A DNA stretch of 64,000 nucleotides from Fusobacteriales bacterium (GTDB lineage: Bacteria > Fusobacteriota > Fusobacteriia > Fusobacteriales > Fusobacteriaceae). The notes beneath the pieces were generated by a model. That model was given only the letters and a program-made list of their open reading frames with translations, was not told where the DNA came from and ran no database searches. Positions 2,349-41,341 of this stretch are shown here, one piece after another (the first letter of the stretch is position 1; each line of letters begins with the position of its first letter). Location of the stretch: the NCBI GenBank assembly GCA_020063625.1, contig JAICDD010000001.1:1-64000 (forward strand), in the 5' to 3' direction. The position numbers were made by a program, and so were the translations under genes.

Positions 2349-2366
2349 AAAATATTCCCCCTATTA

Positions 2367-3446: not shown

Positions 3447-3452
3447 TATTCA

Positions 3453-4334: not shown

Positions 4335-4335
4335 T

Positions 4336-5661
4336 TTAACTTATCCCCTCAATAAATATTTCTTTTAATTTCTCTTTAGTTGCTATTTCTATATCATCTG
4401 GTACTGTTTGCCCAGTAGTTATAAATGATATCGGTATATTATATTTTTTCATTATTGTTAATATTGAACCTACACTACTTGTTTCATCAATTTTTGTAAA
4501 AATTATACTTGAAAAACCAATATATTTAAATTTTTCTATAGTTTCATATAATACTTTTAATTTTGATGTTGCACTCATTACAAGTACTACCTCTATTTCA
4601 CTTCCTATACTTTCAACATATTCTTTAAGCTCTTCCATTTGCTCTCTGTTTTTAGGACTTCTACCTGCAGTATCCATAAGAACTATATCTTTATCTTTAA
4701 ACTTTTCAACTGCTTTTATTAAATCTTCTGGTCTTTTTACAACCTCTACTGGAACTCTCATTATATTTGCATAGGCTTTTATTTGACTAACAGCTTCTAA
4801 TCTATAAGTATCTGCTGTAATAAAAGCTACCTCTTTTTCATTCCGCCAATTATTTGCTACAATTTTAGCACAAGATGTTGTTTTCCCCACTCCTGTTGGT
4901 CCTACTAACATTAAAAATTTTTTATCTAATACATTTTCTGAAGTTTTTATATGCTGTAAAAAATATTCTCCCAATCCTTCTTTATAATTTTTTTTAGAAT
5001 AACCTTTTTCTGTAAAAAAATCATTTATTTCTAATGCAATATCTTTAGGTATGTCGTTTTCTCTTAATTTTTCAATAAATTCCTCTGATTCATTATCAAA
5101 ATTATTAACATCTTTTTTCTCATTTTTTAATTCTCTTGATAATTCTCTTTGAATCTCTTTTTTTATATCTTCAATATCAGCTTCTTCTATTTTTTCAATG
5201 TTTTCAACAAATGTAAAACTTTTTGATACTTCATCGTTTTTTAGAGCTTCACTTAACGGTTTAAATTCTTTTACTTCTTTTATTGAAATTTCCTCTTTAA
5301 TTTTATCAATACTCTTAAAATTTTCTTTTTTAAAAGGTGAATAAATTCCTGGATTTTTATTTTCTACGTTAGCTTCAATTGTTTTTTTTGCAGCATCTTT
5401 TAATGCTTGTAACAACTCTGTGTTATTTCCTGATTTAATATCTTTATTTTGAATATACCCTTGAGTTTCTTCTAAACCATAAGTTACTTTTATTTTTTTC
5501 TTTCCAAAAAATCCAAATACTCCACCTTGTTTTATCTCTTTTTTATCAATTAAAATTAAATCATTCCCCAATTCTTTTCTTGCTTTTGCATAAGCTATTC
5601 TATATTCATCCTCTATATATGTTTTTACTTTTTTTAATTTTATATTTTTTATGTCTAACAT
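4336..5661 (-). CDS. flhF: Flagellar SRP-type GTPase FlhF
   Basis: FlhF is an SRP-family GTPase that marks the site of flagellar assembly at the membrane. The 441-residue protein has the usual B domain, which is basic and then acidic/charged (about 1-200), an N domain, and a G domain with GPTGVGKTTSCAK (about 250), DTAGRSPKNR and the TKIDET guanine-specificity motif. The start codon overlaps the flhA stop region, and flhG follows by 1 base, so flhA-flhF-flhG is tightly coupled. Length and motifs are intact. Confidence 0.95.
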   Translation of the reverse strand: MLDIKNIKLKKVKTYIEDEYRIAYAKARKELGNDLILIDKKEIKQGGVFGFFGKKKIKVTYGLEETQGYIQNKDIKSGNNTELLQALKDAAKKTIEANVENKNPGIYSPFKKENFKSIDKIKEEISIKEVKEFKPLSEALKNDEVSKSFTFVENIEKIEEADIEDIKKEIQRELSRELKNEKKDVNNFDNESEEFIEKLRENDIPKDIALEINDFFTEKGYSKKNYKEGLGEYFLQHIKTSENVLDKKFLMLVGPTGVGKTTSCAKIVANNWRNEKEVAFITADTYRLEAVSQIKAYANIMRVPVEVVKRPEDLIKAVEKFKDKDIVLMDTAGRSPKNREQMEELKEYVESIGSEIEVVLVMSATSKLKVLYETIEKFKYIGFSSIIFTKIDETSSVGSILTIMKKYNIPISFITTGQTVPDDIEIATKEKLKEIFIEGIS

Positions 5662-7730
5662 TATTCAATGTTCACCATCCCAATTGCTTCAAGTTCAATA
5701 TCTGCTATTATTTCATTATATGAAATTATTGCTATCCCTTTAAAATCCCTCTCAAGTAATCCTCTAAGTGGTTTTCTTATTTCTGGTGCAACTAATATTA
5801 CCGCTGGATATCCTGACATAATACATTTATTATTTTCTTCAGAAACACTTGTTAATAATTTATTATTTGATACTGGATCTAAAGATATATAATTACCTAA
5901 TTCCGTCTCTTGTAAATTATTCTTTAAAAATTCTTCTGTTTCTGGCGATAAAGTTAAAACTCTTAATTTCCCGTCAGGACCTTTAAATTCATTACATATT
6001 TGTCTCGCTAATCCTATTCTTACATATTCAGATAATGTTTCAATATTTTGTGTTAATTTAGAAGCATCTGCCATAGCTTCTAAAATTAAAGGTAAATTTC
6101 TTATTGAAATCCCTTCATTAAGTAAATTTTGTAATACAGTTTGAATTTCTCCTAAGTCAAATTTTTTAGGATATACTTCATCTACAATAACACTATATTC
6201 ATCTTTTATATTATCAATTAACTCTTTTACCCCTTCTCTATCTAAAATATCTGCTGCGTGTCTTTTTATTGTTTCTGTTATATGTGTTGCTAATACTGAA
6301 GTTGGGTCAACTACAGTATATCCTAATAGTTCAGCTTTCTCTCTCTGGTCTTCGCTTATCCAAATAGCAGGTAATTTAAAAGCAGGTTCAACAGTTGGAA
6401 CTCCTACTATCTCTTCTTCAATATTTCCAGGATTCATAGCTAAATAACTTCCTATCATTATGTCTCCAATTGCAACAACTGAAGATTTTATTTTTATGTT
6501 ATATTCATTTGGATTTAGTTGCATATTATCTTTTATTCTCATATACGGAACCATGATTCCTAATTCCATCGCTAATTGTTTTCTTATCATTGTAATTCTT
6601 TCAAGAAGGTCTCCACCTTGCTCTTTGTCTACAATAGGTATTAAACTATATCCTAATTCTAATTCCATAGGATCTACTTTTAATAAACTTTTAACTTCTT
6701 CTATTTGATTTCCTTCAGTATTTGATACATTCTCTATTTCTTCTTCTGTTAATTTTGCTTCTGCTTCTTTTATAGATTTAGTTAATATATATCCCAAGAC
6801 ACCTAAAAATATCGAAAGTGAAAAAAATGATAATTTTGGCATACCAGGTATTATTCCTAGAATGAATAATGCTCCTGATATAAGATACAAAATCTTAGGT
6901 TCTTGGAAAAATTGTTCTATTATATCAGTTCCAAAATCTGATTCTGAAGCACTTCTTGTTACCACCATACCTGTTGCTACTGAAATTAATAAAGCTGGTA
7001 TTTGACTGACTAATCCATCTCCTATAGTTAATATAGTATAAGTAGACGCTGCATCCGCGAGTCCCTCTCCTCTTAATATACCAACTAAAAATCCTCCTAG
7101 TATATTTACAATAGTAATTATTATCCCTGCAATAGCATCCCCTTTGACAAATTTAGATGCCCCGTCCATAGAACCATAAAAATCTGATTCCATTTGAATT
7201 TTTTTTCTTCTTTCTTTAGCTTCTTCTTCTGATATTATTCCTGCATTATAATCTGCATCAATACTCATTTGCTTTCCAGGCATAGCATCTAAAGTAAATC
7301 TAGCTCCTACTTCTGCTACCCTTTCAGAACCTTTTGTTATAACTATAAAATTTATTACTACCAATATTACAAAGACAATAATTCCTATTACATAATTCCC
7401 ACCAACTACAAAATCTCCAAACGTTCTAATTAGTTTTCCATTAAAATTTAATCCTTGTAATAAAATAAGTTTTGTAGATGACATATTTAAAGCTAATCTA
7501 TATAATGTAGTTACTAATAAAACAGATGGAAATACAGAAAAATCAAGAGGTTCTTTTATATACATTGATAATAAAAATATTGTTATTGCTATTGTTATAT
7601 TAAACGCTTGAAAAGTATCTAATAAAAAAGTAGGAATAGGCATAAAAAACATCAATATAACACCTATAAGACCTATTGGTATTAAAGTACTAATTGAAGT
7701 ATTTTTTATTCCTCCATCTAAAACCGCCAT
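5661..7730 (-). CDS. flhA: Flagellar type III export gate protein FlhA
   Basis: FlhA is the large inner-membrane export-gate subunit of the flagellar type III secretion system. The 689-residue protein has a hydrophobic half with about eight membrane segments (to about residue 330). It carries the FHIPEP-family signature RFTLDAMPGKQMSIDAD, and a cytoplasmic C-terminal half that docks chaperone-substrate complexes. Length and organisation are typical. It follows flhB by 16 bases with a weak GGAGAG-type ribosome site. It should act with FliP, FliQ, FliR and FlhB, all just upstream. Confidence 0.97.
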   Translation of the reverse strand: MAVLDGGIKNTSISTLIPIGLIGVILMFFMPIPTFLLDTFQAFNITIAITIFLLSMYIKEPLDFSVFPSVLLVTTLYRLALNMSSTKLILLQGLNFNGKLIRTFGDFVVGGNYVIGIIVFVILVVINFIVITKGSERVAEVGARFTLDAMPGKQMSIDADYNAGIISEEEAKERRKKIQMESDFYGSMDGASKFVKGDAIAGIIITIVNILGGFLVGILRGEGLADAASTYTILTIGDGLVSQIPALLISVATGMVVTRSASESDFGTDIIEQFFQEPKILYLISGALFILGIIPGMPKLSFFSLSIFLGVLGYILTKSIKEAEAKLTEEEIENVSNTEGNQIEEVKSLLKVDPMELELGYSLIPIVDKEQGGDLLERITMIRKQLAMELGIMVPYMRIKDNMQLNPNEYNIKIKSSVVAIGDIMIGSYLAMNPGNIEEEIVGVPTVEPAFKLPAIWISEDQREKAELLGYTVVDPTSVLATHITETIKRHAADILDREGVKELIDNIKDEYSVIVDEVYPKKFDLGEIQTVLQNLLNEGISIRNLPLILEAMADASKLTQNIETLSEYVRIGLARQICNEFKGPDGKLRVLTLSPETEEFLKNNLQETELGNYISLDPVSNNKLLTSVSEENNKCIMSGYPAVILVAPEIRKPLRGLLERDFKGIAIISYNEIIADIELEAIGMVNIE

Positions 7731-7746
7731 ATTTCTCTCCTTAAAA

Positions 7747-8833
7747 TTACTCTAATATAACCGCAAGAATCTCAGCTACAGCTTGATAATATTCTTCTGG
7801 TATTTCCTGATTTACTTCAACAATAGGATACATTGCCCTTGCTAAAGGTTTATTTTCAATTAGTGGTACATTATGTTCTTTTGCTATTTCTCTTATTCTA
7901 AGTGCCATAAAATCTATTCCTTTAGCTACTACTTCTGGCGCCCCCATTCCTCTTTCATATTTTAATGCAATTGAAATATGAGTTGGATTTGTTATAATCA
8001 CTGTTGCTTCTGGAACTTTTTCTATCATTTTTTTATTTAGTAAATCTTTTTGCATTTGTCTTAATTTTGATTTAATTTGTGGATCCCCTTCAGTTTGTTT
8101 AAATTCATCCTTTACTTCTTGCTTAGTCATTTTTAAACTTTTTTCAAATTCCCATTTTTGATACATATAATCTATCATTGCAACTATTAATAAAGCTACT
8201 GTAATTTTTATTACAACCGAAAAACACAAATTTAACATTAAAATAAAATCATTTTCTATACTGAAAAAAGGTGTGTTTAAACTTTCGTTTAATTTATTTT
8301 TTATTTCATAATAAGCATAAAAACCTATTAAAATTAATTTTATAATTGTTTTAGTTAATTCAACTAACTTTTTCATTGAAAATAGTTGTTTTAATCCATT
8401 TAAAGGATTTATTTTATTTAAATCTAATTTTAATGTTTCTGTTGTAAAAATAAATCCTACTTGAATATAATTTATTACAAGCCCTATTATTAGCACACTC
8501 ATTAAAATAGGAAATACTGTTATAAAAAATAATTCCGTAAATTCTGCCATTATTTCTAAAATTTTTTCTTGAGTCAGTTCTTTAAAAGTTAAATTACTTA
8601 ATTGTTTTGCAACATAATTATTTATATTAACTAAAAAAAAAACTATTTGAAAATCTTAACACTAGTATTCCTACTAATAGTGTTGCTATTTGTCCTAAAT
8701 CTTGACTTTTAGCTACTTGTCCTTTTTTTCTAGCCTCTTGTCGCCTTTTAGGCGTTGCTTCTTCTGTTTTATCTCCTCCACTATCTGCAAATAGTTGAAG
8801 ATTAATTGTTACTTTTAATAATTTATCATTCAT
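7747..8833 (-). pseudogene. flhB: Flagellar export apparatus switch protein FlhB, split by frameshift in a T10 tract
   Basis: FlhB controls the switch from rod/hook to filament export. The N-terminal piece (8627-8833, from ATG 8833) has the conserved GGDKTEEATPKRRQEARKKG start and the first membrane helix. It then runs through ten T residues (coding strand; positions 8633-8642) into an immediate stop. The remainder (from the frame around 8632 to 7747) holds the other membrane helices, the NPTH autocleavage motif (VIITNPTHISIALKY) and the cytoplasmic domain. Removing one T would join the pieces in frame as SNSFFLVNINNYVAKQ, giving a normal FlhB of about 360 residues. The cause may be a real lesion, phase variation, slippage or a sequencing error. 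Confidence 0.88.
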
Positions 8834-8844
8834 ATAAATCACAT

Positions 8845-9627
8845 CTAACTATTTAATGATATTTTAATAAGTTCTCCTAAATGTAAATACATTTTTTCAA
8901 AAACACTATTAAAATATAAAATAAAAATTGGTATAAATTTAACTAATAATATTAACCCAATAATAATCTTTAATGGCATCCCTATAAAAAAAACATTCAT
9001 TTGTGGTGCTATTCTTGACATAACACCTAATACTATATCAATTGCTAATAATATCATTAGAATAGGTATTGCCACTTGAATAGACAATGTAAAATAATAT
9101 ATAAAAAGCTTAGTTAAAAATTCTGTTATCCCATTAATATTATAATTTAAACTACCAATTGGGTATTTATAAAATGTATCTGCTAACAAAAATAAAACTT
9201 TTCTATGCACTCCATAAATAAAAAAAAGACCCATCAAAACCAAATACTTTATTTGTCCTAAAACAGGTATCTGAAATTGAGAAATAGGGTCAAAAACACT
9301 TGCCATTACTAATCCCATATTTACACTATATATTTGTGATGCTGTTTGAACAATAGAAAACACTAATAATATAACGTATCCTAAAATAGCTCCTAACAAC
9401 ATTTCTTTTATTAAAAACGATATAAGATTTGAAAAATTTATATTATAAAACTTTGATTCTTGTATTACTAATGAATTGTATAATAATATAGAAATAAATG
9501 CAGATATACCTATTTTTACTTTTTGTGTAATTGCATTATGACTAAATACTGGTGCAACAATAAATATTCCTGCTATTCTAGAAAAAATCAAAAGAAATAT
9601 TATAACTTTTATATAAAAATTTTCCAT
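8845..9627 (-). CDS. fliR: Flagellar export protein FliR
   Basis: FliR is an inner-membrane component of the flagellar type III export gate, part of the FliP5-FliQ4-FliR1 complex. The 260-residue protein has about six hydrophobic segments. It shows typical FliR stretches such as ISRIAGIFIVAPVFS-like residues near the N-terminus, and the central GLVMASVFDPISQFQIPVLGQ. It lies 2 bases after fliQ and 11 bases before the flhB start. Length matches the family. Confidence 0.94.
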   Translation of the reverse strand: MENFYIKVIIFLLIFSRIAGIFIVAPVFSHNAITQKVKIGISAFISILLYNSLVIQESKFYNINFSNLISFLIKEMLLGAILGYVILLVFSIVQTASQIYSVNMGLVMASVFDPISQFQIPVLGQIKYLVLMGLFFIYGVHRKVLFLLADTFYKYPIGSLNYNINGITEFLTKLFIYYFTLSIQVAIPILMILLAIDIVLGVMSRIAPQMNVFFIGMPLKIIIGLILLVKFIPIFILYFNSVFEKMYLHLGELIKISLNS

Positions 9628-9629
9628 TT

Positions 9630-9896
9630 TTATCCCAACCTAGATATCATTTTTATTAGTTCTTTAGTGTATTCTATCAGAGTTACAAGCATCCATTGTC
9701 CCAATACAAATACCACAATGAATATTGAAATAATCTTGGGTATAAAACTAAGTGTCATTTCTTGAATTTGAGTAGTTGCTTGAAATATCCCTACAAGCAA
9801 TCCTACTACCAATCCTACAATTAGTATAGGTAAACTTATTTTTAAAATTATCATTAGAGCACTTGTTATAAGCTCCATTATCATTTCTTCTGTCAT
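9630..9896 (-). CDS. fliQ: Flagellar export protein FliQ
   Basis: FliQ is a small two-helix inner-membrane subunit of the export gate. The 88-residue protein has two hydrophobic hairpin helices. It carries the family signature GLVVGLLVGIFQATTQIQEM, with FIPKI following. It is placed between fliP (9-base gap) and fliR (2-base gap), exactly as in other flagellar operons. Confidence 0.95.
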   Translation of the reverse strand: MTEEMIMELITSALMIILKISLPILIVGLVVGLLVGIFQATTQIQEMTLSFIPKIISIFIVVFVLGQWMLVTLIEYTKELIKMISRLG

Positions 9897-9905
9897 TATG
9901 TTCTC

Positions 9906-10643
9906 CTAAAAGAAACTCTTTACTAAGGAATCTAAAATTAAATTCCAACCATCTACCATAACAAAAATAACTAATTTAAACGGCATCGATATCATTGCAG
10001 GTGGTAGCATCATCATACCCAAAGACATAAGTACTGTAGCCACAATCATATCAATTATAATGAACGGTATAAAAATAAGTATTCCTATTTCAAAACCTCT
10101 TGTTAATTCACTTATTAAAAATGCAGGTGTTACCACAAAAATAGAGATTTCTTCTCTATTTTTAGGAATTTCACTTTTAGAAATCTTTAGAAAAAGCTCT
10201 AAATCCTCTGTTTTTGTTTGTTTTAACATAAACTTTTTTAATGGTTTTTCTATATTTTCAAAAAAAACTTTTTCATTTATTTTGTTATCTAAATAAGGAT
10301 TAATTGCATTTTCTAAAACATCATCAAAAGTAGGTTGCATAATAAAAAAAGTAAGTATTAATGCTAATCCAACCAATACTTGATTTGGAGGCATTTGTTG
10401 TAATCCTAAAGCTTGTCTAATGAAATGTAACACAATCGTTATTCTCACAAAAGACGTTGTTAATATAATTATTGAGGGAGCAAGAGTTAATATTGTCATA
10501 ATCAGTAGTATCTGTAAACTTGCAACTAAATTATTATTCCCAGTTCCTGTTCCAACCTTTAATTCTATTTGTGGAAATTCAACTGCTGCATAACTAGTCA
10601 TTGCAAGTAAAACATAAAAAACACTACTAATTTTTTTTCTCAT
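9906..10643 (-). CDS. fliP: Flagellar export protein FliP
   Basis: FliP forms the core of the flagellar export gate. The 245-residue protein begins with a cleavable-looking signal peptide (RKKISSVFYVLLAMTSYAA). It continues with family stretches: SFVRITIVLHFIRQALG, QMPPNQVLVGLALILTFF and the C-terminal MMLPPAMISMPFKL. The periplasmic loop between helices is the usual variable part. Its start overlaps the end of fliO by 17 bases. It is complete and of normal length. Confidence 0.96.
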   Translation of the reverse strand: MRKKISSVFYVLLAMTSYAAVEFPQIELKVGTGTGNNNLVASLQILLIMTILTLAPSIIILTTSFVRITIVLHFIRQALGLQQMPPNQVLVGLALILTFFIMQPTFDDVLENAINPYLDNKINEKVFFENIEKPLKKFMLKQTKTEDLELFLKISKSEIPKNREEISIFVVTPAFLISELTRGFEIGILIFIPFIIIDMIVATVLMSLGMMMLPPAMISMPFKLVIFVMVDGWNLILDSLVKSFF

Positions 10644-11010
10644 TTTCTGCTTCCCTCATTTTTTTTAGTTTCTCTTTAAAATTATCAATTTCAATATTTG
10701 AACTTTTATTTTTATAATTATCTAAAAAAGAAACAAAATCTTTTTTATCTATCTCCTCTTGTGCTTTTAATTCATTAAATTCATCAATTTTCACAATATT
10801 ATTTTCTGATATTCCTATTAAAATATATTTCCCATTAATTTCTATCAATGAAATATAATTTTTAGTATTAAAATAATATCTTGTGATTTCATTTATCATT
10901 TTACTTTTTTTATTTAACTTAATACCATTTTTTTTTAGCATATATGAAACCACTATAAAAAGTAGTAATATTAAAAATAATATTAAATTTAAAAAGTAAG
11001 CATTATTCAT
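10627..11010 (-). CDS. fliO: FliO-like flagellar assembly protein
   Basis: FliO helps FliP assemble. The 127-residue protein has one N-terminal membrane helix (about 8-25), then a small beta-rich cytoplasmic region (YISLIEINGKYILIGISENNIVKI) typical of FliO/FliZ, and a charged C-terminal tail. Sequence identity in this family is low, so the call rests on size, topology, that core motif and the position between cheY and fliP, where Bacillus and spirochetes also carry FliO/FliZ. Confidence 0.8.
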   Translation of the reverse strand: MNNAYFLNLILFLILLLFIVVSYMLKKNGIKLNKKSKMINEITRYYFNTKNYISLIEINGKYILIGISENNIVKIDEFNELKAQEEIDKKDFVSFLDNYKNKSSNIEIDNFKEKLKKMREAENEKKN

Positions 11011-11011
11011 A

Positions 11012-11380
11012 CTAACTTCCCATTACTTTTGACACTGCCTCAATAACTCTATCTGGTTGGAATGGTTTTACAATAAAATCTTTTGCTCCTGCTTGTATAG
11101 CATCAATTACCATAGCTTGTTGTCCCATCGCGCTACACATTATAATTTTCGCTCCTGGATTTGATGACATAATTTCTTTTACAGCACTTATTCCATCCAT
11201 TTCAGGCATTGTAATATCCATCGTTACTAAATCAGGATTAAGTTCTTTAAATTTTGCTACTGCTACAGCTCCATTTTCTGCTTCTCCAACTATCTCATAT
11301 CCCTCTTTTGTTAAAATGTTTTTAATCATCATTCTCATAAAAGCAGCATCATCTACTATTAAGATTTTACCTTTAGACAT
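11012..11380 (-). CDS. cheY: Chemotaxis response regulator CheY
   Basis: CheY is the diffusible regulator that, when phosphorylated by CheA, binds the flagellar switch. The 122-residue single receiver domain has D10/D11, phospho-acceptor D55 in LVTMDITMPEMDG, a conserved Ser in MCSAMGQ and the Lys in IVKPFQP. No output domain is present. It lies between fliY and fliO, as in Bacillus. FliM and FliY immediately upstream both begin with CheY-binding motifs, so the circuit is complete here. Confidence 0.96.
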   Translation of the reverse strand: MSKGKILIVDDAAFMRMMIKNILTKEGYEIVGEAENGAVAVAKFKELNPDLVTMDITMPEMDGISAVKEIMSSNPGAKIIMCSAMGQQAMVIDAIQAGAKDFIVKPFQPDRVIEAVSKVMGS

Positions 11381-11394
11381 TATAAATCCTCCCT

Positions 11395-12603
11395 TTACTG
11401 TACTTTATTAATTCTTTCCATTTTACTTACAATATCTGTTATTCTAACACCAAAACTTTCATCAATTACAACAACTTCTCCTTTTGCAATCAATTTACCA
11501 TTAACTAATATATCTACAGGCTCACCTGCTAACTTATCTAATTCTACTATAGAGCCTGCACCTAAGTCAAGTATTTCTTTTATAGGAAGTTTCGTTCTTC
11601 CTAATTCTACTGTTACTTTTAATGGAATATCCATTATTATATCTAAATTCGCATCTACACTTGCAGGTGATGGTGTTCCAAAACTTTGAAATTGTGCTGG
11701 TTGCACATTATAATTTGGCTGATACATTGGTTGCGGTGGTGCTTGATACATTGGTTGTGGTTGTGGTGGCGCTTGATACATTGGTTGTGATGGCGCCTCT
11801 TGATACATTGGTTGTGGTGGCGCTTGATACATTGGTTGTGGTTGTGGTGGCGTCGGTTGAGGTGTTGGCTGTGGTGCAGCTTGTGGTTCTGGTTTTGTTC
11901 CTTTAGGTTCTGCTGTTCCATTCATCATTCCAAACATCTCATCTATTAATTCTTTTGCAAAATTTATATCCATTATTTGATATATTTTTGTTTTTATCAA
12001 ATTTTCAATCTCCATATCAAATGAAACAGATATAAACTCATTATTAGACTTAAAAAAATCTGTTTGATTTTTTATCTCTTCTGGATCAGTAACTGTTAAT
12101 TGAGGTGGTAAAATATCAACTTCTTTAGAAAACATCCCTGCTAAAGAAGTAGCTGAAGATCCCATCATTTGGTTCATTGCCTCACTTACAGCACTTAAAT
12201 AAATGTCATCTAACTCTTCTGGTGGATTAGAGCCATCATTTCCCATCATTAAATCTCCAATTAAAATCGCATCTTTTTTATCAATAATTAATATATTTAA
12301 TCCTATAAATCCTGTTCTATATTCTATTTGGCAAAGTACTTTTTCATCCGCTCCACTTTCTGAAATAAAATCATTATATGTCATTACACTTACTTTTGGT
12401 GTTGTTATTTGAACTTCTTTAGAAAGTAAAGTTGATAAAGCCGTAGAAGATGACCCTAAAGAAATATTTCCTATTTCTCCAATCGCATCAGCTTCTTCTT
12501 GTGTTAAATTATAACCAGAACCACTACTTTCTTCTGGTTCATCACTTATATCTGTTCCTGCAAGTAGTGCATTTATTTCTTCTTGTGATAATACTCCTTC
12601 CAC
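11395..12603 (-). CDS. fliY: Flagellar switch phosphatase FliY (CheC-like plus FliN)
   Basis: FliY is the switch protein that replaces FliN in Bacillus and spirochetes and dephosphorylates CheY-P. The 402-residue protein opens with LSQEEINALL, a CheY-P binding motif. It has two CheC-type phosphatase repeats (DAIGEIGNISLGSSSTALS near 38-56 and AVSEAMNQMMGSSATSL near 138-154), a proline/glutamine-rich linker, and a C-terminal FliN domain (IMDIPLKVTVELGRTKLPIKEIL). The linker consists of repeated QPMYQ units encoded by near-identical DNA repeats. It starts just after the fliM stop and precedes cheY. Confidence 0.95.
   Translation of the reverse strand: MEGVLSQEEINALLAGTDISDEPEESSGSGYNLTQEEADAIGEIGNISLGSSSTALSTLLSKEVQITTPKVSVMTYNDFISESGADEKVLCQIEYRTGFIGLNILIIDKKDAILIGDLMMGNDGSNPPEELDDIYLSAVSEAMNQMMGSSATSLAGMFSKEVDILPPQLTVTDPEEIKNQTDFFKSNNEFISVSFDMEIENLIKTKIYQIMDINFAKELIDEMFGMMNGTAEPKGTKPEPQAAPQPTPQPTPPQPQPMYQAPPQPMYQEAPSQPMYQAPPQPQPMYQAPPQPMYQPNYNVQPAQFQSFGTPSPASVDANLDIIMDIPLKVTVELGRTKLPIKEILDLGAGSIVELDKLAGEPVDILVNGKLIAKGEVVVIDESFGVRITDIVSKMERINKVQ
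11715..11880 (-). repeat. In-frame tandem repeats in fliY linker
   Basis: This part of fliY encodes five QPMYQ units within a run of PP/PQ residues. At DNA level the plus strand repeats TTGATACATTGGTTG followed by variable TGG/CGG triplets. The units are whole codons, so gain or loss would lengthen or shorten the linker without breaking the frame. Confidence 0.85.
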
Positions 12604-12606
12604 AGC

Positions 12607-13596
12607 TTATTCACTCCCTTCTTCTATAACTTTTTCAATTGATATTGCCATTTTTTTACCTTGTAGCCCTGGTAAAGCTTTAAATTTTTCTTTGTTTCCA
12701 ACTAACACTGATAATGGTTTATCAATCGATGTATTTAATGGTAATACATCTCCAACTTGCAATCTTATAAATTCATTAAAATTAATTTCTACTTCTCCTA
12801 AATTTACAATTAATGGTACTTCTACTTTATTTAATTTTTTTCTAATAACTTCAAAATTTTCATCTGTTTTTTCTTTTTTTAAATTTGAGAACCAGTACTG
12901 AGCTGAAAGTTTTGATACTATAGGGTCTATTAAAGGCGACGGATAGCAAATGTTCATTATCCCAGACTTATTCCCAACTTTTATTTCAAAACTTATTACA
13001 ACTACCATTTCATTTGGCCCTACAATTTGAATAAATTGAGGATTAGACTCCATTTGTTCTATTCTAGGCATTACCTCTGTTACATCTTTCCATGCTTCAC
13101 TTAAATAACCTAAAATTTTGGATAAAATTTTCTCCATAACTTTTGACTCTATATCTGTTGGTTCTCGATAAATTTCTAACTCTTTAAAACCATTTCCACC
13201 AAATAACCTATCAATAATAGTATACGCTATACTTGGATTAATTTCAAGAATAGCACTCCCTTCCAAAGTCCCCATTTCATAAATAGTAAGTAAAGTTAAC
13301 TCTGGTATTGATCTAATAAATTCTTGATATGATATTTGATCTACTGAAGTAACTTGAATTTGAACACTTGTTCTAAGTTGACCTGATAACATTGTAGTTA
13401 TTAATCTTGAAAATGTTTCATGTATCATTTGCAATGTTCTTAATTGATCTTTTGAAAATTTATCTGGTCTTTTAAAATCGTAAAGTTTTATTTTCTTTTC
13501 TTCTTCTTCTGATTTTGCTTTATCTATATCAACTTCACCTGTAGAGATCGCCGATAATAGTGCGTCAATCTCATCTTGTGATAATACATCTGCCAT
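12607..13596 (-). CDS. fliM: Flagellar motor switch protein FliM
   Basis: FliM is the C-ring protein that binds CheY-P and reverses rotation. The 329-residue protein starts with LSQDEIDALLSAI (the CheY-P binding helix). Next comes the middle domain with YDFKRPDKFSKDQLRTLQMIHE and the GG motif in RLFGGNG, and last a FliN-like C-terminal domain with LQVGDVLPL. It overlaps no neighbour: fliL ends upstream and fliY follows at 3 bases. All parts are present. Confidence 0.97.
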   Translation of the reverse strand: MADVLSQDEIDALLSAISTGEVDIDKAKSEEEEKKIKLYDFKRPDKFSKDQLRTLQMIHETFSRLITTMLSGQLRTSVQIQVTSVDQISYQEFIRSIPELTLLTIYEMGTLEGSAILEINPSIAYTIIDRLFGGNGFKELEIYREPTDIESKVMEKILSKILGYLSEAWKDVTEVMPRIEQMESNPQFIQIVGPNEMVVVISFEIKVGNKSGIMNICYPSPLIDPIVSKLSAQYWFSNLKKEKTDENFEVIRKKLNKVEVPLIVNLGEVEINFNEFIRLQVGDVLPLNTSIDKPLSVLVGNKEKFKALPGLQGKKMAISIEKVIEEGSE

Positions 13597-13619
13597 TTTG
13601 CCTCACCACCTAACGTCGG

Positions 13620-14156
13620 CTATTGAATTAGTACATTACTAAATCTTATGTTAATTAAATATTCTTTTCCTAACACTTTGTTAACTTCATCTTTTATCAT
13701 TTCTCTAAGCTTAATAAAATCTTTATCTGCTTTTAAATCAGCAATACTTTTACTCATTAAGATAGAAATCACCCTATCTTGAAGTATTACTTTATTTGTT
13801 TCAACATCAGCTTGTATTTTTTCAAGTTCTTTAGCTTTTATTTTTGGACTATATTCAAAGTATATACTTACAACTAAATATCTTGGATTATCTTCATTTA
13901 AGTTTACTGTATAATCTCCAAAATAAGATGTTTGTCCATATTCTATTTTTTCAACACTATCAACTGTATTATCTTTTTGAACCATTTCTTGTTGACTATT
14001 TGATTTACTGCTTATTTTAGTCGCAACAAAAAAGGCTGTTGCTGTAGAAATAACTACTACAAGAATTGCTAAAGTAGCTACTATTAATGCTTTTACCAAA
14101 AAAGGAGTTCCTTTTTTCTCTGTTTCTTGAGCATTATTTTTAGTTTCATCTGCCAT
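13620..14156 (-). CDS. fliL: Flagellar basal body protein FliL
   Basis: FliL is a single-span inner-membrane protein around the stator that supports torque. The protein has about 178 residues, with a membrane helix around 20-45 and a periplasmic domain ending in the typical VLIQ. I choose ATG 14156 (MADETKNN) because an AAGGAGG ribosome site lies 8 bases before it. A longer reading from 14177 would overlap motB and has no such site. The order motA-motB-fliL-fliM is the one seen in spirochetes and Thermotoga-like operons. Confidence 0.93.
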   Translation of the reverse strand: MADETKNNAQETEKKGTPFLVKALIVATLAILVVVISTATAFFVATKISSKSNSQQEMVQKDNTVDSVEKIEYGQTSYFGDYTVNLNEDNPRYLVVSIYFEYSPKIKAKELEKIQADVETNKVILQDRVISILMSKSIADLKADKDFIKLREMIKDEVNKVLGKEYLINIRFSNVLIQ

Positions 14157-14157
14157 A

Positions 14158-15024
14158 CTATTTTCCTCCTTGGTCACTTACTGCGGGATTCATATTTTCA
14201 GCTACTGCTTTTTCTTGGAAACGTTCATCTAAACTTTTTAATATAACAATTACAACACGTCTATTTTTTTGCCGTCCCTCTTTTGTATCATTTGTAGCTA
14301 TTGGTCTAGTATCTGCATATCCCGCTACAGACATCCTTTTTTCTATATTTTTATCTTTTGAAATAAAATATCTAAGAACTGCTATAGCTCTTGCTGTAGA
14401 CAATTCCCAGTTACTTTTAAATTCTTTATTATTTATTGGCAGGTTGTCTGTATTTCCTTCTATAATTATATTATTTTCTATGTTCTTAATATTATTATAA
14501 ACAATATCTAGAATAGGCATAGCTTCTTTTCTTAAAAAAGCTTTTCCTAAATCAAATAATACTCTATCGCCTAAACTAATTTCTATTCCTCTTTCTGTTA
14601 CTTTTACATTTGTATCTTCATTAGTTATTTGTCCTAATTTTTTTTCTGTTTGCTTAGTTTGACTCTCTTTATTTTGGTTTTCTGTAGATTCACTTGAGTT
14701 TTCATTTCTATTTTGAGTATATTCATCTCCAGAATATTTTTTCAATTCTCCATCAATTTTTTTAGAAAGATATTGATACCTATACTCACTACCTTTATAT
14801 TCTATTCTACTATTCGTAAGTAATTCATCAGGACTTATTGTTTTCCCACCTTTCATTACTCCCATAGTACCTTTAAAAGACATAATTAAATTTTTATATT
14901 TTTGAGAATCAACTGTAGAAAAGGCAAATAGTAGAACGAAAAAACACAATAATAGTGTAACCATATCTCCATAAGTACCCATCCATCCAGGTAACCCTTC
15001 TGGAGGACATTTTTTTTCTGCCAT
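14158..15024 (-). CDS. motB: Flagellar stator protein MotB
   Basis: MotB is the peptidoglycan-anchored stator subunit of the proton or sodium channel. The 288-residue protein has the conserved start CPPEGLPGWMGTYGDMVTLLL, where D20 is the ion-binding Asp in the single membrane helix. A Gln/Glu-rich linker follows, then an OmpA-like peptidoglycan-binding domain with IIIEGNTDNLPI and NWELSTARAIAVL. It starts 2 bases after motA. Ion specificity cannot be decided from the sequence by eye. Confidence 0.96.
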   Translation of the reverse strand: MAEKKCPPEGLPGWMGTYGDMVTLLLCFFVLLFAFSTVDSQKYKNLIMSFKGTMGVMKGGKTISPDELLTNSRIEYKGSEYRYQYLSKKIDGELKKYSGDEYTQNRNENSSESTENQNKESQTKQTEKKLGQITNEDTNVKVTERGIEISLGDRVLFDLGKAFLRKEAMPILDIVYNNIKNIENNIIIEGNTDNLPINNKEFKSNWELSTARAIAVLRYFISKDKNIEKRMSVAGYADTRPIATNDTKEGRQKNRRVVIVILKSLDERFQEKAVAENMNPAVSDQGGK

Positions 15025-15026
15025 CT

Positions 15027-15797
15027 TTATTCACCTTCTTCTTTAGATAAAGAAGCTCTTTCATCTGGAGATAAGAATGATTTTAATTTTTCTTCTAATA
15101 CTTTTGGATTATCTCCCGCTTGTAGAGAAAGTATTCCTTCTATTGCTAATTCTCTAAACGCTATCTCTTTTGTGTTGTAAAATTCTAGTTTATTTGCAAT
15201 TGGATCTCCTAGTGCATTTGCTAAAATCGATCCATACAGAGTTGTAATTAAGGCTATAGCCATTTTTGGTCCTATTGAACTCGGATCATCTAAACTTCCT
15301 AGCATAAGTATAAGACCTATAAGTGTTCCTATCATCCCATATGCTGGACCTAACGAAGCAATAGTTTTAAACATTGATTTCCCTAACTCATGTCTTTCTC
15401 CAGTAAATCCCACTTCTGTATCTAATATATTTTTTACAAGTTCAGGATCTGTCCCATCTACAACAAGTTGTATTCCCTTTTTTAAAAAATCGTCTTCTAT
15501 TGTTTCTATATCTGCTTCAATTGCTAATAATCCTTCTTTTCTAGCTTTTTCAGAAAAACTAACTAAGGTTGATATAAGCCCTGCAGAGTCTGGAACTTCA
15601 TTTTTAATTGCTTTCATCCCAATTTTTGGAAGTCCTAATACTATGTTTAAAGGAAATGACATAAATAACGCTCCAAATGTTCCTCCAACAACTATAAAAA
15701 ACGAAGGCGGATCTATAAATGGACCAAAATTAAATCCCATTCCCATTGCCATTAGTGCAAATATTAAGACAAATCCAAGTATTGTAGAAATATCCAT
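15027..15797 (-). CDS. motA: Flagellar stator protein MotA
   Basis: MotA forms the ion-conducting stator with MotB and contacts FliG. The 256-residue protein has four membrane segments and the family stretch GPAYGMIGTLIGLILMLG. The cytoplasmic loop between helices 2 and 3 contains the charged residues that interact with the rotor. It lies between flbD and motB with short gaps and has a normal length. Confidence 0.96.
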   Translation of the reverse strand: MDISTILGFVLIFALMAMGMGFNFGPFIDPPSFFIVVGGTFGALFMSFPLNIVLGLPKIGMKAIKNEVPDSAGLISTLVSFSEKARKEGLLAIEADIETIEDDFLKKGIQLVVDGTDPELVKNILDTEVGFTGERHELGKSMFKTIASLGPAYGMIGTLIGLILMLGSLDDPSSIGPKMAIALITTLYGSILANALGDPIANKLEFYNTKEIAFRELAIEGILSLQAGDNPKVLEEKLKSFLSPDERASLSKEEGE

Positions 15798-15808
15798 ATT
15801 TTAGCCTC

Positions 15809-16000
15809 CTATATAAGCTGTATACTTTTTCTATATTGTATTATTTTTTCTATAATTTCCTCTTTTTTTTCATTAACTAAAAGTTTTTTTCCTGTAGTTA
15901 AATTTATAACTGTATCAGGATTTTCCTCTATTGTTTCAATTAAATCAGCGTTTATTACAATTTCTTTTTTTTCTTTTCCTAATTTTGTCAAGAGTATCAT
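15809..16000 (-). CDS. flbD: FlbD/SwrD family flagellar protein
   Basis: This 63-residue protein matches the small FlbD (SwrD) family found between flgE and motA or fliL in many flagellar operons. In Bacillus its homologue raises stator power. The visible signature is the start MILLTKLGKE, a central VINADLIETIEENPDT segment and TGKKLLVNEK. It is a short beta-rich cytoplasmic protein with no membrane helix. It has a GGGGGAG-type ribosome site. Confidence 0.9.
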   Translation of the reverse strand: MILLTKLGKEKKEIVINADLIETIEENPDTVINLTTGKKLLVNEKKEEIIEKIIQYRKSIQLI

Positions 16001-16054
16001 TTTACTCCCCCTACTATTATATCATTATTTATTAACAAAATCTAGCATTTTAAC

Positions 16055-16080
16055 AAAATAGCGGGAGCGTTTACCCGCTA
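16055..16080 (-). terminator. Hairpin after flgE, possible partial terminator
   Basis: A seven-base-pair GC-rich stem (TAGCGGG / CCCGCTA, eight-base loop) follows the flgE stop by a few bases on the minus strand. The tail is only TTTTGTT. It could attenuate transcription into flbD-motA or stabilise the 3' end of flgE mRNA. Confidence 0.5.
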
Positions 16081-16086
16081 CTTAGT

Positions 16087-17853
16087 TTATCTTTTTAAAT
16101 TGATTACATTTTCTAATATTTGATCTGATGTAGAAATTGTTTTAGAGTTTGCTTGGAATCCTCTTTGAGCAATAATCATATCTGTAAATTCTTGTGCTAA
16201 ATCGACATTAGACATCTCTAGAGCTCCTGCTACAACTTTTCCTGTTCCAGCTGTTCCTGGAGTAAGTACCATAGCTTCTCCTGAGTTTGAAGTTTGTTTA
16301 AATGCACTTCCACCTATATTTTGAAGTCCTTCTGCATTAGTAAATTTAGCTAATGCTATTTTACCTATTGTTTGTTCATAACCATTTGAATAGAATCCCA
16401 TAATATCTCCAGAATCAGTGATATTAAATGTTTCTAATTCACCCATTCCATATCCATTTTGAGATTCTAAAGTAATTGTTGTTTGTGCTGCAAATTGAGT
16501 TACATTATTAAAGTTTAATGTAATTTCAAGTGGCGATGCTCCTCCTTCTGGTGGTGGTGCTGAACCTTCTGCAGCCGGATCAAATACAAGTTTCTCATCA
16601 AATTGAGCATTCATTATTTGTCCTTTTTTAGGTCCTCCTGGAACTTCTGCTCCTCTAAATCTTACTACTCCATTTGCATCCATACTATATTGACTATTTA
16701 CATCTCCATATGTAACTTGTCCTGTTGCAGGGTCTACAATACCATTTTCAAAATACATTGTTGTTACCCCTTCTGGCCAAGTTGTTTGGTCATTTGGATC
16801 TGCATATTTATATTTTCCATTTATTTGTCCCACTGAATCAAACGTAATAAATCCTTTACCATTTTTTACTGGTTCTCCACTACCTGAAGTAACATCAAAA
16901 TCCCATACATTTTCTGATAATTTTGTATATTTTATACCTAAAGTATGTGTTTTACCTAATGAATCATAAACTTCACTAGAAGTAACATAAGCATTTTCTG
17001 TAAATGATGCTGTTTTTTTGTTTTTTACATCTGCTATTTCAGAGAATGTTATTTTACCAGCTACTGGAGAATTTATTAAAACTCCATTTGCATTTTGAAT
17101 AGGGATTGTTTCACTAGGGAAACTTCTTTTAATATTCCCATCTTCATCAAGTTGGAAAGCTCCTTGTCCTATAATTCCTTCTCCTTCTGCTTTCCAATAC
17201 CATTTATCCGAATTTTTATCATATGAAAATTTTATTCCTACATCTACTTTTTTTCCTGTTCCACTTAAATCATCTACTGATAAAGTAAGATCTGATATTC
17301 CAGATTTTTGTTGTAAGTTACCCGTATAGTTTAAAGTATCTGTAGCTTTTCCTGGAAGAGAGCTTCCTACCCTAATTTGTAAATCTCCTAATGGGGTAGT
17401 AGAGTCTATTCCCATAGTTCCATCATCTCTTATAGTTGCTTGCCAACCTTGTACTTTCATTCCACTAGGAGTTACTAGATTACCATTTGCATCTAAATTA
17501 AAATTCCCTGCTCTTGTATAAAATCTACTATTTCCTTCTTTTAAAATAAAAAATCCATTTCCATCAATTCTTAAATCTGTTTTTCTTCCAGTAGTTTGTT
17601 GTGCTCCAGATTTAAAATCTGTATTAATACTAGATACTGATGTACCAAGACCTATTGTTGAAGGATTTGTTCCTCCTCTACCTTCTACTGGTCCTCTAGC
17701 ACCTTTTAATGTTCTAGTCATTGTTTCTTCAAAATTAACACTAGATCTCTTAAATCCAGCTGTATTTACATTTGCAATGTTGTTTCCTACTACATCAAGC
17801 TTTGTTTGATGAGCTTTTAGCCCACTAATGCTTGAATATAATGCTCCTAACAT
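16087..17853 (-). CDS. flgE: Flagellar hook protein FlgE
   Basis: FlgE polymerises into the extracellular hook joining rod and filament. The 588-residue protein has the N-terminal rod/hook signature SSISGLKAHQTKLDVVGNN followed by NVNTAGFKRS. Variable surface domains follow, and then the C-terminal coiled-coil motif QRGFQANSKTISTSDQILE. It is longer than enteric FlgE but in the range of Firmicute and spirochete forms. I saw no Cys, so the spirochete-type lysinoalanine crosslink is not expected. A structured leader precedes it. Confidence 0.96.
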   Translation of the reverse strand: MLGALYSSISGLKAHQTKLDVVGNNIANVNTAGFKRSSVNFEETMTRTLKGARGPVEGRGGTNPSTIGLGTSVSSINTDFKSGAQQTTGRKTDLRIDGNGFFILKEGNSRFYTRAGNFNLDANGNLVTPSGMKVQGWQATIRDDGTMGIDSTTPLGDLQIRVGSSLPGKATDTLNYTGNLQQKSGISDLTLSVDDLSGTGKKVDVGIKFSYDKNSDKWYWKAEGEGIIGQGAFQLDEDGNIKRSFPSETIPIQNANGVLINSPVAGKITFSEIADVKNKKTASFTENAYVTSSEVYDSLGKTHTLGIKYTKLSENVWDFDVTSGSGEPVKNGKGFITFDSVGQINGKYKYADPNDQTTWPEGVTTMYFENGIVDPATGQVTYGDVNSQYSMDANGVVRFRGAEVPGGPKKGQIMNAQFDEKLVFDPAAEGSAPPPEGGASPLEITLNFNNVTQFAAQTTITLESQNGYGMGELETFNITDSGDIMGFYSNGYEQTIGKIALAKFTNAEGLQNIGGSAFKQTSNSGEAMVLTPGTAGTGKVVAGALEMSNVDLAQEFTDMIIAQRGFQANSKTISTSDQILENVINLKR

Positions 17854-17866
17854 ATTTTTCCTCCTT

Positions 17867-17917
17867 TATCATCTCAGTCGTTCAATGATTAAAGGCTTCC
17901 TTTTCAGGTCCAGCCTA
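17867..17917 (-). promoter_or_regulatory. Two-hairpin mRNA leader of flgE
   Basis: In the 108-base gap before flgE the minus-strand RNA can form two hairpins. The first is AGGCU/AGCCU enclosing CCU-GAAA-AGG with a GNRA loop and a GGA internal loop (17893-17916). The second is AUCAU/AUGAU with a 12-base loop (17868-17889). The flgE ribosome site GGAGG follows directly. The GGA motifs would suit a CsrA/RsmA-type protein, but that is inference. It matches no riboswitch class I can recall. Confidence 0.45.
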
Positions 17918-17961
17918 TTCATTTTAGAGAAAAACAAGGTAATAATTTAAGAAATACAGAA

Positions 17962-18345
17962 TTAAACTAATGCAAGACTATCTATATTTGTAAATAAATT
18001 GTCTTTTAAATTTGGTTCATCCACAATAGTTACAACAGTATTATTTTTTACACTTATTACATAAGCTCTATTTTTTGCTATAACAACTGAATCTCTGCAC
18101 CCTTTTTCTCTTAATTTTTTCACTCCTTCTTGTACCTTCTTAAGTTCATCCTCTTTTATCTCCATTTTTCTGCTTTCTATTCTTTTTTGTGCATGTGCAG
18201 AAAATTTCAATTTTTTTTCATTTTCTAAAACATTTTCAAATGCCACTGTGGGCTTATTTCCCTTATTATTTTTGTTGCTATTATCTATGTTATTATTTAC
18301 ACTCTTTAACCCTTGAATATAAGTTGAGTTTAAAAGTCTAGCCAT
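17962..18345 (-). CDS. Flagellar operon protein (TIGR02530 type)
   Basis: This 127-residue protein resembles the small 'flagellar operon protein' family found near flgD and flgE in Clostridia and Bacillus relatives. Its recognisable part is FSAHAQKRIESRKMEIKEDE, followed by KDSVVIAKNRAYVISVKNNTVVTIVDE-like strands (here RDSVVIAKNRAYVIS). There is no signal peptide or membrane helix. Its exact role is not established; hook assembly is inferred from its place between flgD and flgE. Confidence 0.8.
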   Translation of the reverse strand: MARLLNSTYIQGLKSVNNNIDNSNKNNKGNKPTVAFENVLENEKKLKFSAHAQKRIESRKMEIKEDELKKVQEGVKKLREKGCRDSVVIAKNRAYVISVKNNTVVTIVDEPNLKDNLFTNIDSLALV

Positions 18346-18366
18346 AACACACCTCCTTATCTAAAC

Positions 18367-18873
18367 TTAAGAAAGTTTCATAATATCTTCAGGAAGTGAC
18401 TCTTTTTTACTTTCACTTTTATTTTTGTCTTCAATTTTCTCTTTTGATAATGCTACAATAGCCTCTAATGGTATCTTTATCTCTTGGTTTTCACTATCTA
18501 CTACATTTGCAAATACTTGCCCATTTTCTAGATGTGTACTTTTTATTTGTCCTACTATTTCTTCACCATCTATTTGCGCTTTTGTATATTTTCCTATCAT
18601 TTGTGCACTTGAACTTAAAGTATTTAAAGTTTGAAATCTTAGCATTGAGTTAAAAGATTTATTTAAATTTTCTCCTTGTTCAAGAGCTGAAAATTGAGCC
18701 ATTTGAGCTATCGATTCTGTATTTGTTTTAGGATCTAAAGGGTCTTGATTAGTCATTTCAGCTATTAAAAGCTTCATAAAATCATCTTTACCTAATTTTT
18801 GAGATTCATTAACTACTGGAGAACTTTCTTGCAACTCTTTTGGTATTTTTAATCCTGTATTTTTTACTTGCAT
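18367..18873 (-). CDS. flgD: Flagellar hook capping protein FlgD
   Basis: FlgD caps the growing hook and guides FlgE assembly. The 168-residue protein has the conserved N-terminal motif LGKDDFMKLLIAEMTNQDPLDP, then TESIAQMAQFSALEQ. The C-terminal part is short and lacks an obvious FlgD Ig/TIG domain pair, as in Bacillus-type FlgD. It lies 9 bases after fliK. Confidence 0.93.
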   Translation of the reverse strand: MQVKNTGLKIPKELQESSPVVNESQKLGKDDFMKLLIAEMTNQDPLDPKTNTESIAQMAQFSALEQGENLNKSFNSMLRFQTLNTLSSSAQMIGKYTKAQIDGEEIVGQIKSTHLENGQVFANVVDSENQEIKIPLEAIVALSKEKIEDKNKSESKKESLPEDIMKLS

Positions 18874-18882
18874 TACTACCTC

Positions 18883-20142
18883 CTAAACTACTATATTTAC
18901 TCCATTTTCATTAATTTGATTACTTAATTTTGCTGTTGATTCTACAGCATTTAAGTGTATATCATTTACAACTGGAGTATTAGCAATATTATTATTTGCT
19001 AAAAATTGATATCTTTCTCTAAAATCATTTTGATTATTTTGGTTATCGGAAGATACATATACATTTACTTCTTGTGCATCAATTCCTTGTTTTAAAAGAT
19101 TTTCTTTTAAATCATTAAACTTGCTTTCAATTATCTCTTTTACTGTTTGATTTTGCACTACAAATTCTGCTTTCATTACATTGTTTTCAATTTTAAATTT
19201 TACTTCAACATCTCCTAATTCTTCTGGTTTAAGTTTAATTTTCATCTCTTTTAATTGAGAATTATAATTAACTTTTAAACCATTTTCTATTTGCTCCATT
19301 ACTGTATCATATGAGATACCTTGATTTGGTGCGAATACTTTTTCTGTTCCCTCTTTTGTTTTTAATTCAAAATTCATATTTTTTGAATCAACATTAGTTA
19401 TTTGAATCTCATCATCTTTGTCACTGTTTTTTAATTTTTTCAAACCATAAGATGACATAAATGCTAAATCATTTCTCCCTTTTACATCTGTTTTAGAAAA
19501 TTGAACTTGGCTATCAGAATTTAAAACTTCATCCACAAAAATATTTTCTTTATTTTCGTGGTTTTTTGCGCTAATTTTATTTTTTTGAAGAATATTATCT
19601 TCATTTTTTGTTCTGAATTTAGAATTAGCTGCTATCTCTTTACCTACAATTAATTCTGTTGCAACTTTTTGTTTTTCAGAACTTAACTCTTTTACCTTAA
19701 GACCTTCATCTTTTGATAAAATCTCATTTGAATTAGCGAGTTTTATTCCTAATTGAGCTCTAGATATTCTATTGCCAATGTCCTTTTTGCTAGTAGCTTT
19801 AATTTCAACTATTTTAGTATCTAATTTTGTATTTATTAACTCTTTAGAATCTGATTTCTGACTATTATTTTTTGTAGCATTGGATAGTAAAATTCCTGCT
19901 AAAACCTCTTTTGTTACATCTTTGTCTGTATTCTTTTTAGCATCAATCAGTTCTTTGTCTGTAATATTAAGAATGTTATTTTTGTTTGCATCAAGTAAAG
20001 TTTTTTTGTTTTTTGTTGTATTAAATATCTTAGTAAAATCAAATATTTTTTTACCATTCTTAATATTTTTACTACTTGTTTTACTACTAGCAACCTTTTC
20101 TATACCAGATATATTGGGAGTTTGCAATATGTTTGCTTCCAT
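18883..20142 (-). CDS. fliK: Flagellar hook-length control protein FliK
   Basis: FliK is the exported ruler that measures the hook and triggers the FlhB specificity switch. The 419-residue protein is Lys/Asn/Ser-rich and low in complexity for its first 270 residues, as usual for the ruler. Its C-terminal switch domain reads LKEMKIKLKPEELGDVEVKF, then KAEFVVQN and LKENLLKQGIDAQEVNVYV. It is the first gene of the operon. An AGGAGGTG ribosome site precedes ATG 20142, and a sigma-28-like promoter lies about 25 bases upstream. Confidence 0.92.
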   Translation of the reverse strand: MEANILQTPNISGIEKVASSKTSSKNIKNGKKIFDFTKIFNTTKNKKTLLDANKNNILNITDKELIDAKKNTDKDVTKEVLAGILLSNATKNNSQKSDSKELINTKLDTKIVEIKATSKKDIGNRISRAQLGIKLANSNEILSKDEGLKVKELSSEKQKVATELIVGKEIAANSKFRTKNEDNILQKNKISAKNHENKENIFVDEVLNSDSQVQFSKTDVKGRNDLAFMSSYGLKKLKNSDKDDEIQITNVDSKNMNFELKTKEGTEKVFAPNQGISYDTVMEQIENGLKVNYNSQLKEMKIKLKPEELGDVEVKFKIENNVMKAEFVVQNQTVKEIIESKFNDLKENLLKQGIDAQEVNVYVSSDNQNNQNDFRERYQFLANNNIANTPVVNDIHLNAVESTAKLSNQINENGVNIVV

Positions 20143-20169: not shown

Positions 20170-20196
20170 TTATCGACATATCAAATATTTTTTTTA
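20170..20196 (-). promoter_or_regulatory. Sigma-28 (FliA/SigD)-type promoter of the fla/che operon
   Basis: On the minus strand TAAA (20193-20196) is followed by exactly 15 bases and then GTCGATAA (20170-20177). The sigma-28 consensus is TAAA-N15-GCCGATAA, so only one position differs. It places the start of transcription about 20 bases before the fliK ATG. No comparable housekeeping promoter is visible in this gap on that strand. Confidence 0.7.
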
Positions 20197-41003: not shown

Positions 41004-41036
41004 AAAATAAACCAGAAGTTTTGGAAACTTCTGGTT
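41004..41036 (-). terminator. Terminator of the orphan sigma-28 gene
   Basis: A 12-bp stem (AACCAGAAGTTT / AAACTTCTGGTT, three-base loop) with a minus-strand TTTATTTTTG tail directly follows the stop at 41037. Confidence 0.9.
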
Positions 41037-41255
41037 TTAAGCTACAATATTTATATTGCCAGTTACAATAGATTTTGCAACAACTTTGGCACCTTGTTTA
41101 TTATATAATCCTATTTCTTGTAATCTACTAGCTAGTTTATCAATGTTTTTTTCAACATGTGGTGCAACATATTGTTGCTTTTTTGTTTTTTGTGGTTCTT
41201 TTTTTACACTACTTGCATAATAAGTAGTATAACCACCTATTCCTCCGACTCTCAT
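41037..41255 (-). CDS. Small protein of unknown function under a sigma-28-type promoter
   Basis: The 72-residue protein starts MRVGGIGGYTTYYASSV. It has a Lys/Gln-rich middle (KKEPQKTKKQQ) and a probable C-terminal helix (NIDKLASRLQEIGLYNKQG) ending in VVAKSIVTGNINIVA. I do not recognise the family. There is no signal peptide or membrane helix. An AAGGAGG ribosome site precedes the ATG. A TAAA-N15-TCCGATAA promoter lies 60-86 bases upstream, and its own terminator follows, so it is a single-gene unit probably in the motility regulon. FlgM, also small and sigma-28-dependent, is one idea, but similarity is too weak to claim. Confidence 0.8.
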   Translation of the reverse strand: MRVGGIGGYTTYYASSVKKEPQKTKKQQYVAPHVEKNIDKLASRLQEIGLYNKQGAKVVAKSIVTGNINIVA

Positions 41256-41314
41256 TTTTCATCCCTCCTTGGACTAATTACTTAATATTCACTCCTTGAA
41301 TATCTATATAATTT

Positions 41315-41341
41315 TTATCGGAGAATTTTATAAAAACTTTA
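41315..41341 (-). promoter_or_regulatory. Sigma-28-type promoter of the 72-residue orphan gene
   Basis: On the minus strand TAAA (41338-41341), exactly 15 bases, then TCCGATAA (41315-41322): one difference from TAAA-N15-GCCGATAA. It overlaps the 3' end of the glycosyltransferase gene and points at the small gene. Confidence 0.7.

Follow-up and report, generated by a model that had tools for sequence, protein, structure and literature searches.

CsrA favours GGA in hairpin loops, and a further site often covers the Shine-Dalgarno sequence; in Bacillus subtilis CsrA repression of flagellin is relieved by FliW (PMC7652899). The hag/fliC leader of B. subtilis, under FliW-CsrA, has in common with the locus described here an upstream GGA-loop hairpin, a GGA at the Shine-Dalgarno, a sigma-28-type promoter and the presence of csrA and fliW, and it differs in that the gene here codes for a 72-residue non-flagellin protein and CsrA binding to its leader is predicted (PMC7652899). 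FlgM (PF04316/TIGR03824) resembles the 72-residue protein in size class, in the predicted layout of a disordered N-terminal half followed by a C-terminal helix-turn-helix and in its sigma-28 promoter, and is set apart by the lack of profile similarity, by helix spacing and by a separate true flgM in the order flgM-flgN-flgK-flgL-fliW-csrA. The FliS, FliT and FlgN chaperones are also small helical late flagellar proteins, although they have no sequence similarity to the 72-residue protein and a separate FliS is encoded in all six flagellin-family-positive genomes. Among the papers searched, none dealt with Haliovirga motility or with a second FlgM.

The window, the whole stretch of 64,000 nucleotides that was analysed, derives from a flagellated Fusobacteriota genome of 1.79 Mb (G000). 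Fusobacteriota are generally seen as non-motile; the window displays a full flagellar/chemotaxis operon (300-20142, minus strand) and flagellin-family genes occur in just 6/98 genomes of the phylum. The operon includes cheA, cheB, a gene for a FlhG-like ATPase, flhA, fliP, fliM, fliL, motA, motB, flgE, flgD and fliK, and at its head a weaker sigma-28-like site, TAAAAAAAATATTTGATATGTCGATAA (20170-20196, minus strand), with A at +5, precedes the fliK-like gene (18883-20142). The 72-residue gene lies 21 kb from this operon, in agreement with the first-pass annotation, which had described a lone small gene remote from the flagellar genes. It is flanked by a convergent gene for a LamB-type porin and a same-strand glycosyltransferase gene. 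The open reading frame gives the previously stated translation of 72 residues, a strong Shine-Dalgarno (AAGGAGG) is located ahead of the ATG, and the gene is followed, as had been claimed, by its own terminator, where a T-rich tail comes after the stem (Table 1).

The label of orphan gene no longer applies, because homologues are found in three other genomes. A protein search covering 61 relatives identified a homologue in G001, the other species of the window's genus (86%), and a weak match in G037 (E 1e-4). The homologue of Haliovirga abyssi (G038, whose second contig is identical to NZ_AP027060.1 across 2.5 kb of compared sequence) is below threshold by sequence alone (E 0.37) and was accepted because its promoter, size, C-terminus and the placement of its conserved part agree. 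The proteins of H. abyssi and G037 are remote, at 24-33% identity to the window protein. Only the congeners' homologues share a genus, and between genera the homologous loci are unrelated. A profile (A3) of the four homologous proteins, run over 98 Fusobacteriota genomes, gives clear matches only in the four source genomes; the scores of these four, H. abyssi included, are circular because the four built the profile, and it is the absence of matches elsewhere in the 98 genomes that is informative. Flagellin-family genes are present in 6 of the 98 genomes, G037 being counted through flgL alone, and a homologue occurs in 4/6 of these versus 0/92 of the others (Fisher 4e-6 by genome; 3/4 versus 0/25 by genus, P 0.001; statistics that ignore phylogeny). 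The first-pass annotation had asked whether homologues are limited to flagellated relatives, and the profile search places them there exclusively. G006 and G018, two flagellated genomes of one genus with fragmented assemblies, display no homologue by the profile or among the ORFs behind the fetched sigma-28-like sites; thus, the gene is not essential for flagella. FlgM is above the cut-off in 5/98 genomes, including 4/4 of those with the 72-residue gene. In G037, flgK, flgL, fliS, fliW and csrA are present and flgL is the sole flagellin-domain match, a true flagellin being absent from the assembly or from the genome. Relatives were found neither with the protein nor with the four-member alignment in GTDB r220 genome contigs, in scans that rest on a few short patterns, so that all known homologues belong to Fusobacteriota, and tblastn against plasmids also returned no relative of the protein.

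Table 1 Features of the 72-residue gene locus, in positions of the window
Feature	Position	Strand	Remarks
Sigma-28 (FliA/SigD) promoter, TAAAGTTT-N11-TCCGATAA	41315..41341	-	same element at homologues in G001 (L003:1415), G037 (L004:1319) and H. abyssi (L013:1284)
5' leader, 59 nt	41256..41314	-	1 substitution between congeners
Leader hairpin 1, GATATTC-AAGGAGT-GAATATT, GGA in loop, candidate CsrA site 1	41284..41304	-	near-identical stem in same-genome flagellin leader
Leader hairpin 2, GUCC-AAGGAG-GGAU, hexaloop with Shine-Dalgarno, candidate CsrA site 2	41261..41274	-	shuffle test
72-residue CDS; residues 1-27 disordered, helices 32-48 and 53-65	41037..41255	-	predicted structure, dN/dS
Intrinsic terminator, 13-bp stem	41009..41037	-	

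The enterobacterial FliA consensus is TAAAGTTT-N11-GCCGATAA. The promoter ahead of the 72-residue gene, TAAAGTTTTTATAAAATTCTCCGATAA, matches this consensus at 15/16 positions, and the position and motif of the previously reported sigma-28-type promoter, one base off consensus, are confirmed. It is of the TAAA-N15-NCCGATAA type, which is also located ahead of other flagellar genes. Across its 1.79 Mb the genome has four TAAAG-N16-CGATA sites: three are intergenic, one before the 72-residue gene and two in tandem before flagellin, and the fourth is within an ORF. The five other flagellated genomes display the same motif ahead of flagellin, flgM, flgG-type rod genes and a hook-length-type gene, in addition to chance sites within coding sequences. 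Thus, in this group TAAAG-N16-CGATA is taken as the sigma-28 promoter. With the looser TAAA-N14-16-CCGATAA, the G000 genome gives no more sites than with the reversed control (5 versus 5), so the motif alone is weak evidence. The regions upstream of the four homologues read TAAAGTTTTTATAAAATTCTCCGATAA (G000), TAAAGTTTTGGTAATATTCTCCGATAA (G001), TAAAGTTTTTCTAAAATATTACGATAA (G037) and TAAAGTTTTATTTCTAAATTCCGATAT (H. abyssi), and all of them retain TAAAGTTT-N11-TNCGATA(A/T). Since the neighbours of the homologues are wholly different between genera, the promoter is kept without synteny across the three genera, and its retention at unlinked homologues is the decisive evidence over the motif alone. 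In the window's genus the stop codon of the glycosyltransferase gene upstream shares bases with the -35 TAAA, an overlap that does not occur in G037 and H. abyssi. A full-length fliA is encoded in G001, G006, G037 and H. abyssi. In contrast, the G000 assembly has no full fliA, and what matches FliA there is a short stretch resembling its C-terminus (contig C13:115074-115130, E 3e-4), which probably reflects an assembly gap or break next to the che operon. The intact fliA of G001 is positioned 45 kb from its homologue of the 72-residue gene.

The 72-residue protein had been described as matching no known family, a statement borne out by searches of Pfam and NCBIfam (no family match, including no match to the FliS profile PF02561 of Pfam), PHROGs (no credible match) and the PDB by sequence and by Foldseek (nothing credible, best Foldseek E 2.1). 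It thus represents a new small protein family of flagellated Fusobacteriota, absent from the libraries searched. Comparison of the congeners gives a dN of 0.026 and a dS of 0.137 for residues 23-72 and a dN close to dS for the N-terminal 22 codons, a pattern that indicates purifying selection on the former and drift of the first 22 residues. AlphaFold models of the window protein and of the H. abyssi homologue display a disordered N-terminal part and a C-terminal two-helix hairpin, at modest confidence (mean pLDDT 61-65, single chains, 4-sequence alignments).

The most informative feature of the locus, absent from the first-pass annotation, is a leader shared in type with flagellin. The 59 nucleotides between promoter and start codon differ by one substitution between congeners, at a dS of 0.147 for the gene (Poisson P ~0.004). 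In G000 and G001 the leader folds into two hairpins with GGA loops, the second over the Shine-Dalgarno, and at least two GGA-loop hairpins are found in 0/1000 (G000) and 1/1000 (G001) dinucleotide shuffles. The fold of the H. abyssi leader comprises a hairpin whose hexaloop is ACGGAG and, at the Shine-Dalgarno, a loop AAGGA, of which the scripted count caught only the latter, and the G037 leader presents neither GGA-loop hairpin by fold or by scripted count. Among the fetched loci a GGA-loop hairpin occurs in 13/16 flagellin leaders versus 18/183 other leaders, a background in which two truncated flagellins and the H. abyssi homologue are still counted. One flagellin leader in G000 has a hairpin, GATATTC-ATGGAAG-GAATATC, with nearly the stem of hairpin 1, and flgM-flgN-flgK-flgL are followed by fliW and csrA. 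The combination of a loop GGA, a GGA over the Shine-Dalgarno and the presence of csrA and fliW is observed in G000, G001 and H. abyssi, and not in G037. Rfam returned no match above threshold at the locus. From the GGA hairpins, the likeness to flagellin and the presence of csrA and fliW the same lock is inferred for the 72-residue gene, for which a predicted, flagellin-like CsrA control is likely. Thus, the gene probably carries the double lock of flagellin, sigma-28 and predicted CsrA, which would extend CsrA-type control beyond flagellin, its best-known target in FliW bacteria, to a second protein.

Membership of the gene in the motility regulon can be assigned with high confidence. This part of the earlier proposal of a motility-regulon protein stands, through the promoter at the four homologues and the flagellate-only occurrence, while the anti-sigma and chaperone roles suggested with it stay hypothetical and nothing observed points to a motor accessory. 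Very probably, the gene encodes a new motility protein, whose biochemical role, as we infer it, is most likely that of a filament-stage accessory, a regulator or a homeostasis factor. The gene would be transcribed by sigma-28 as a late-class flagellar gene, as its conserved sequence suggests, and its translation is predicted to be restrained by CsrA at the two GGA hairpins, one over the Shine-Dalgarno. FliW would free translation during flagellin export, the same double lock as in flagellin. The product would be a cytoplasmic filament-stage accessory, possibly exported afterwards, whose conserved C-terminal two-helix hairpin would dock on a late flagellar partner, such as flagellin, its secretion/homeostasis machinery or sigma-28, with the disordered N-terminal half serving as linker or export signal. 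It would thereby tune flagellin supply or export as the filament grows. This complete explanation, of a sigma-28 late flagellar gene locked by CsrA/FliW whose product is a filament-stage accessory tuning flagellin supply or export, is favoured with reasonable rather than high confidence. The 72-residue gene points to a lineage-specific part of the Fusobacteriota flagellar programme.

A flagellin-type control by promoter and predicted CsrA leader also fits a filament-stage secretion chaperone or co-chaperone, FliT/FliS-partner-like, or an accessory of the filament or cap that is exported and expressed together with flagellin. The product is small and predicted to be helical, and an analogous chaperone gene is generally expected alongside late substrates. 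However, FliS and a gene in the FlgN position are already encoded in the genome, the protein displays no similarity to chaperone families and its gene adjoins no gene for a secreted substrate, which leaves this explanation possible and somewhat doubtful. As FliS is present in all six genomes, the 72-residue protein is not a missing FliS. More tentatively, the protein could belong to a new class of flagellar homeostasis proteins, controlled by sigma-28 and CsrA, that senses or buffers flagellin export, as a second anti-sigma-28 factor or as a modulator of the FliW-CsrA-flagellin switch, only in Fusobacteriota with kept or gained flagella.

A second, FlgM-like anti-sigma-28 factor would bind sigma-28 through its two C-terminal helices and export its disordered N-terminus, exerting negative feedback from the onset of filament synthesis. 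The predicted layout of a disordered N-terminal half followed by a helix-turn-helix is that of FlgM, the N-termini are alike (MKIGRINGYTAYYKSS in G001 versus MKIVGNINSIYGKYTKD in FlgM), and the 72-residue gene would be under the sigma-28 that its product inhibits, similarly to flgM in G037 and G006. The best pairwise scores against fusobacterial FlgM beat almost all shuffles, with a z of ~4 for 2/20 pairs, a result that is weak after multiple testing. In contrast, no member of the 72-residue family matches FlgM of Pfam or any NCBIfam model, profile-profile comparison with fusobacterial FlgM by hhalign gives 0.3%, the helix spacing is 1-2 residues off FlgM and a separate true FlgM exists in all four gene-carrying genomes. 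Homology to FlgM is not supported, judging by the missing PF04316/TIGR03824 match, the hhalign value and the shuffled pairwise scores. For the anti-sigma suggestion of the first-pass annotation, the predicted layout is similar, with a putative binding of sigma-28 by the C-terminal helices: the sequences do not support membership in the FlgM family, the protein may work in a FlgM-like way, and a second anti-sigma-28 factor of this kind appears unlikely. A promoter look-alike that arose by chance in AT-rich DNA, ahead of a small ORF that evolves fast and is no functional motility gene, would agree with a loose motif no commoner than its reversed control, a -35 overlapping a stop codon in the window's genus and a dN about equal to dS in the first 22 codons, but is highly improbable given the retention of the promoter across three genera at unlinked homologues, the flagellate-only distribution, the C-terminal purifying selection and the conserved leader.

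Upstream of a flagellin gene on contig C17 of G000 (L163:17890-18380), structured RNA units that contain GGA-loop hairpins stand under tandem sigma-28-type promoters. Like units are located at L165:16043-16268(-), L026:1232-1453, L029:1120-1347 and L167:11078-11340(-). The element CTTAAAC-NNGGAG-GTTTAAG is conserved in 5 genomes of 3 genera and the units end in an intrinsic terminator ahead of the flagellin ORF. These units, with weak covariation and no above-threshold match in Rfam, resemble a sponge RNA for CsrA or a flagellin leader under terminator control. On contig C26 of the same genome (L162:8974-10638, minus strand), two of the flagellin copies arranged in tandem lack a normal N-terminus, their match to the flagellin domain starting at position 36 or 50, and these short copies are possibly degenerate or the result of assembly collapse.
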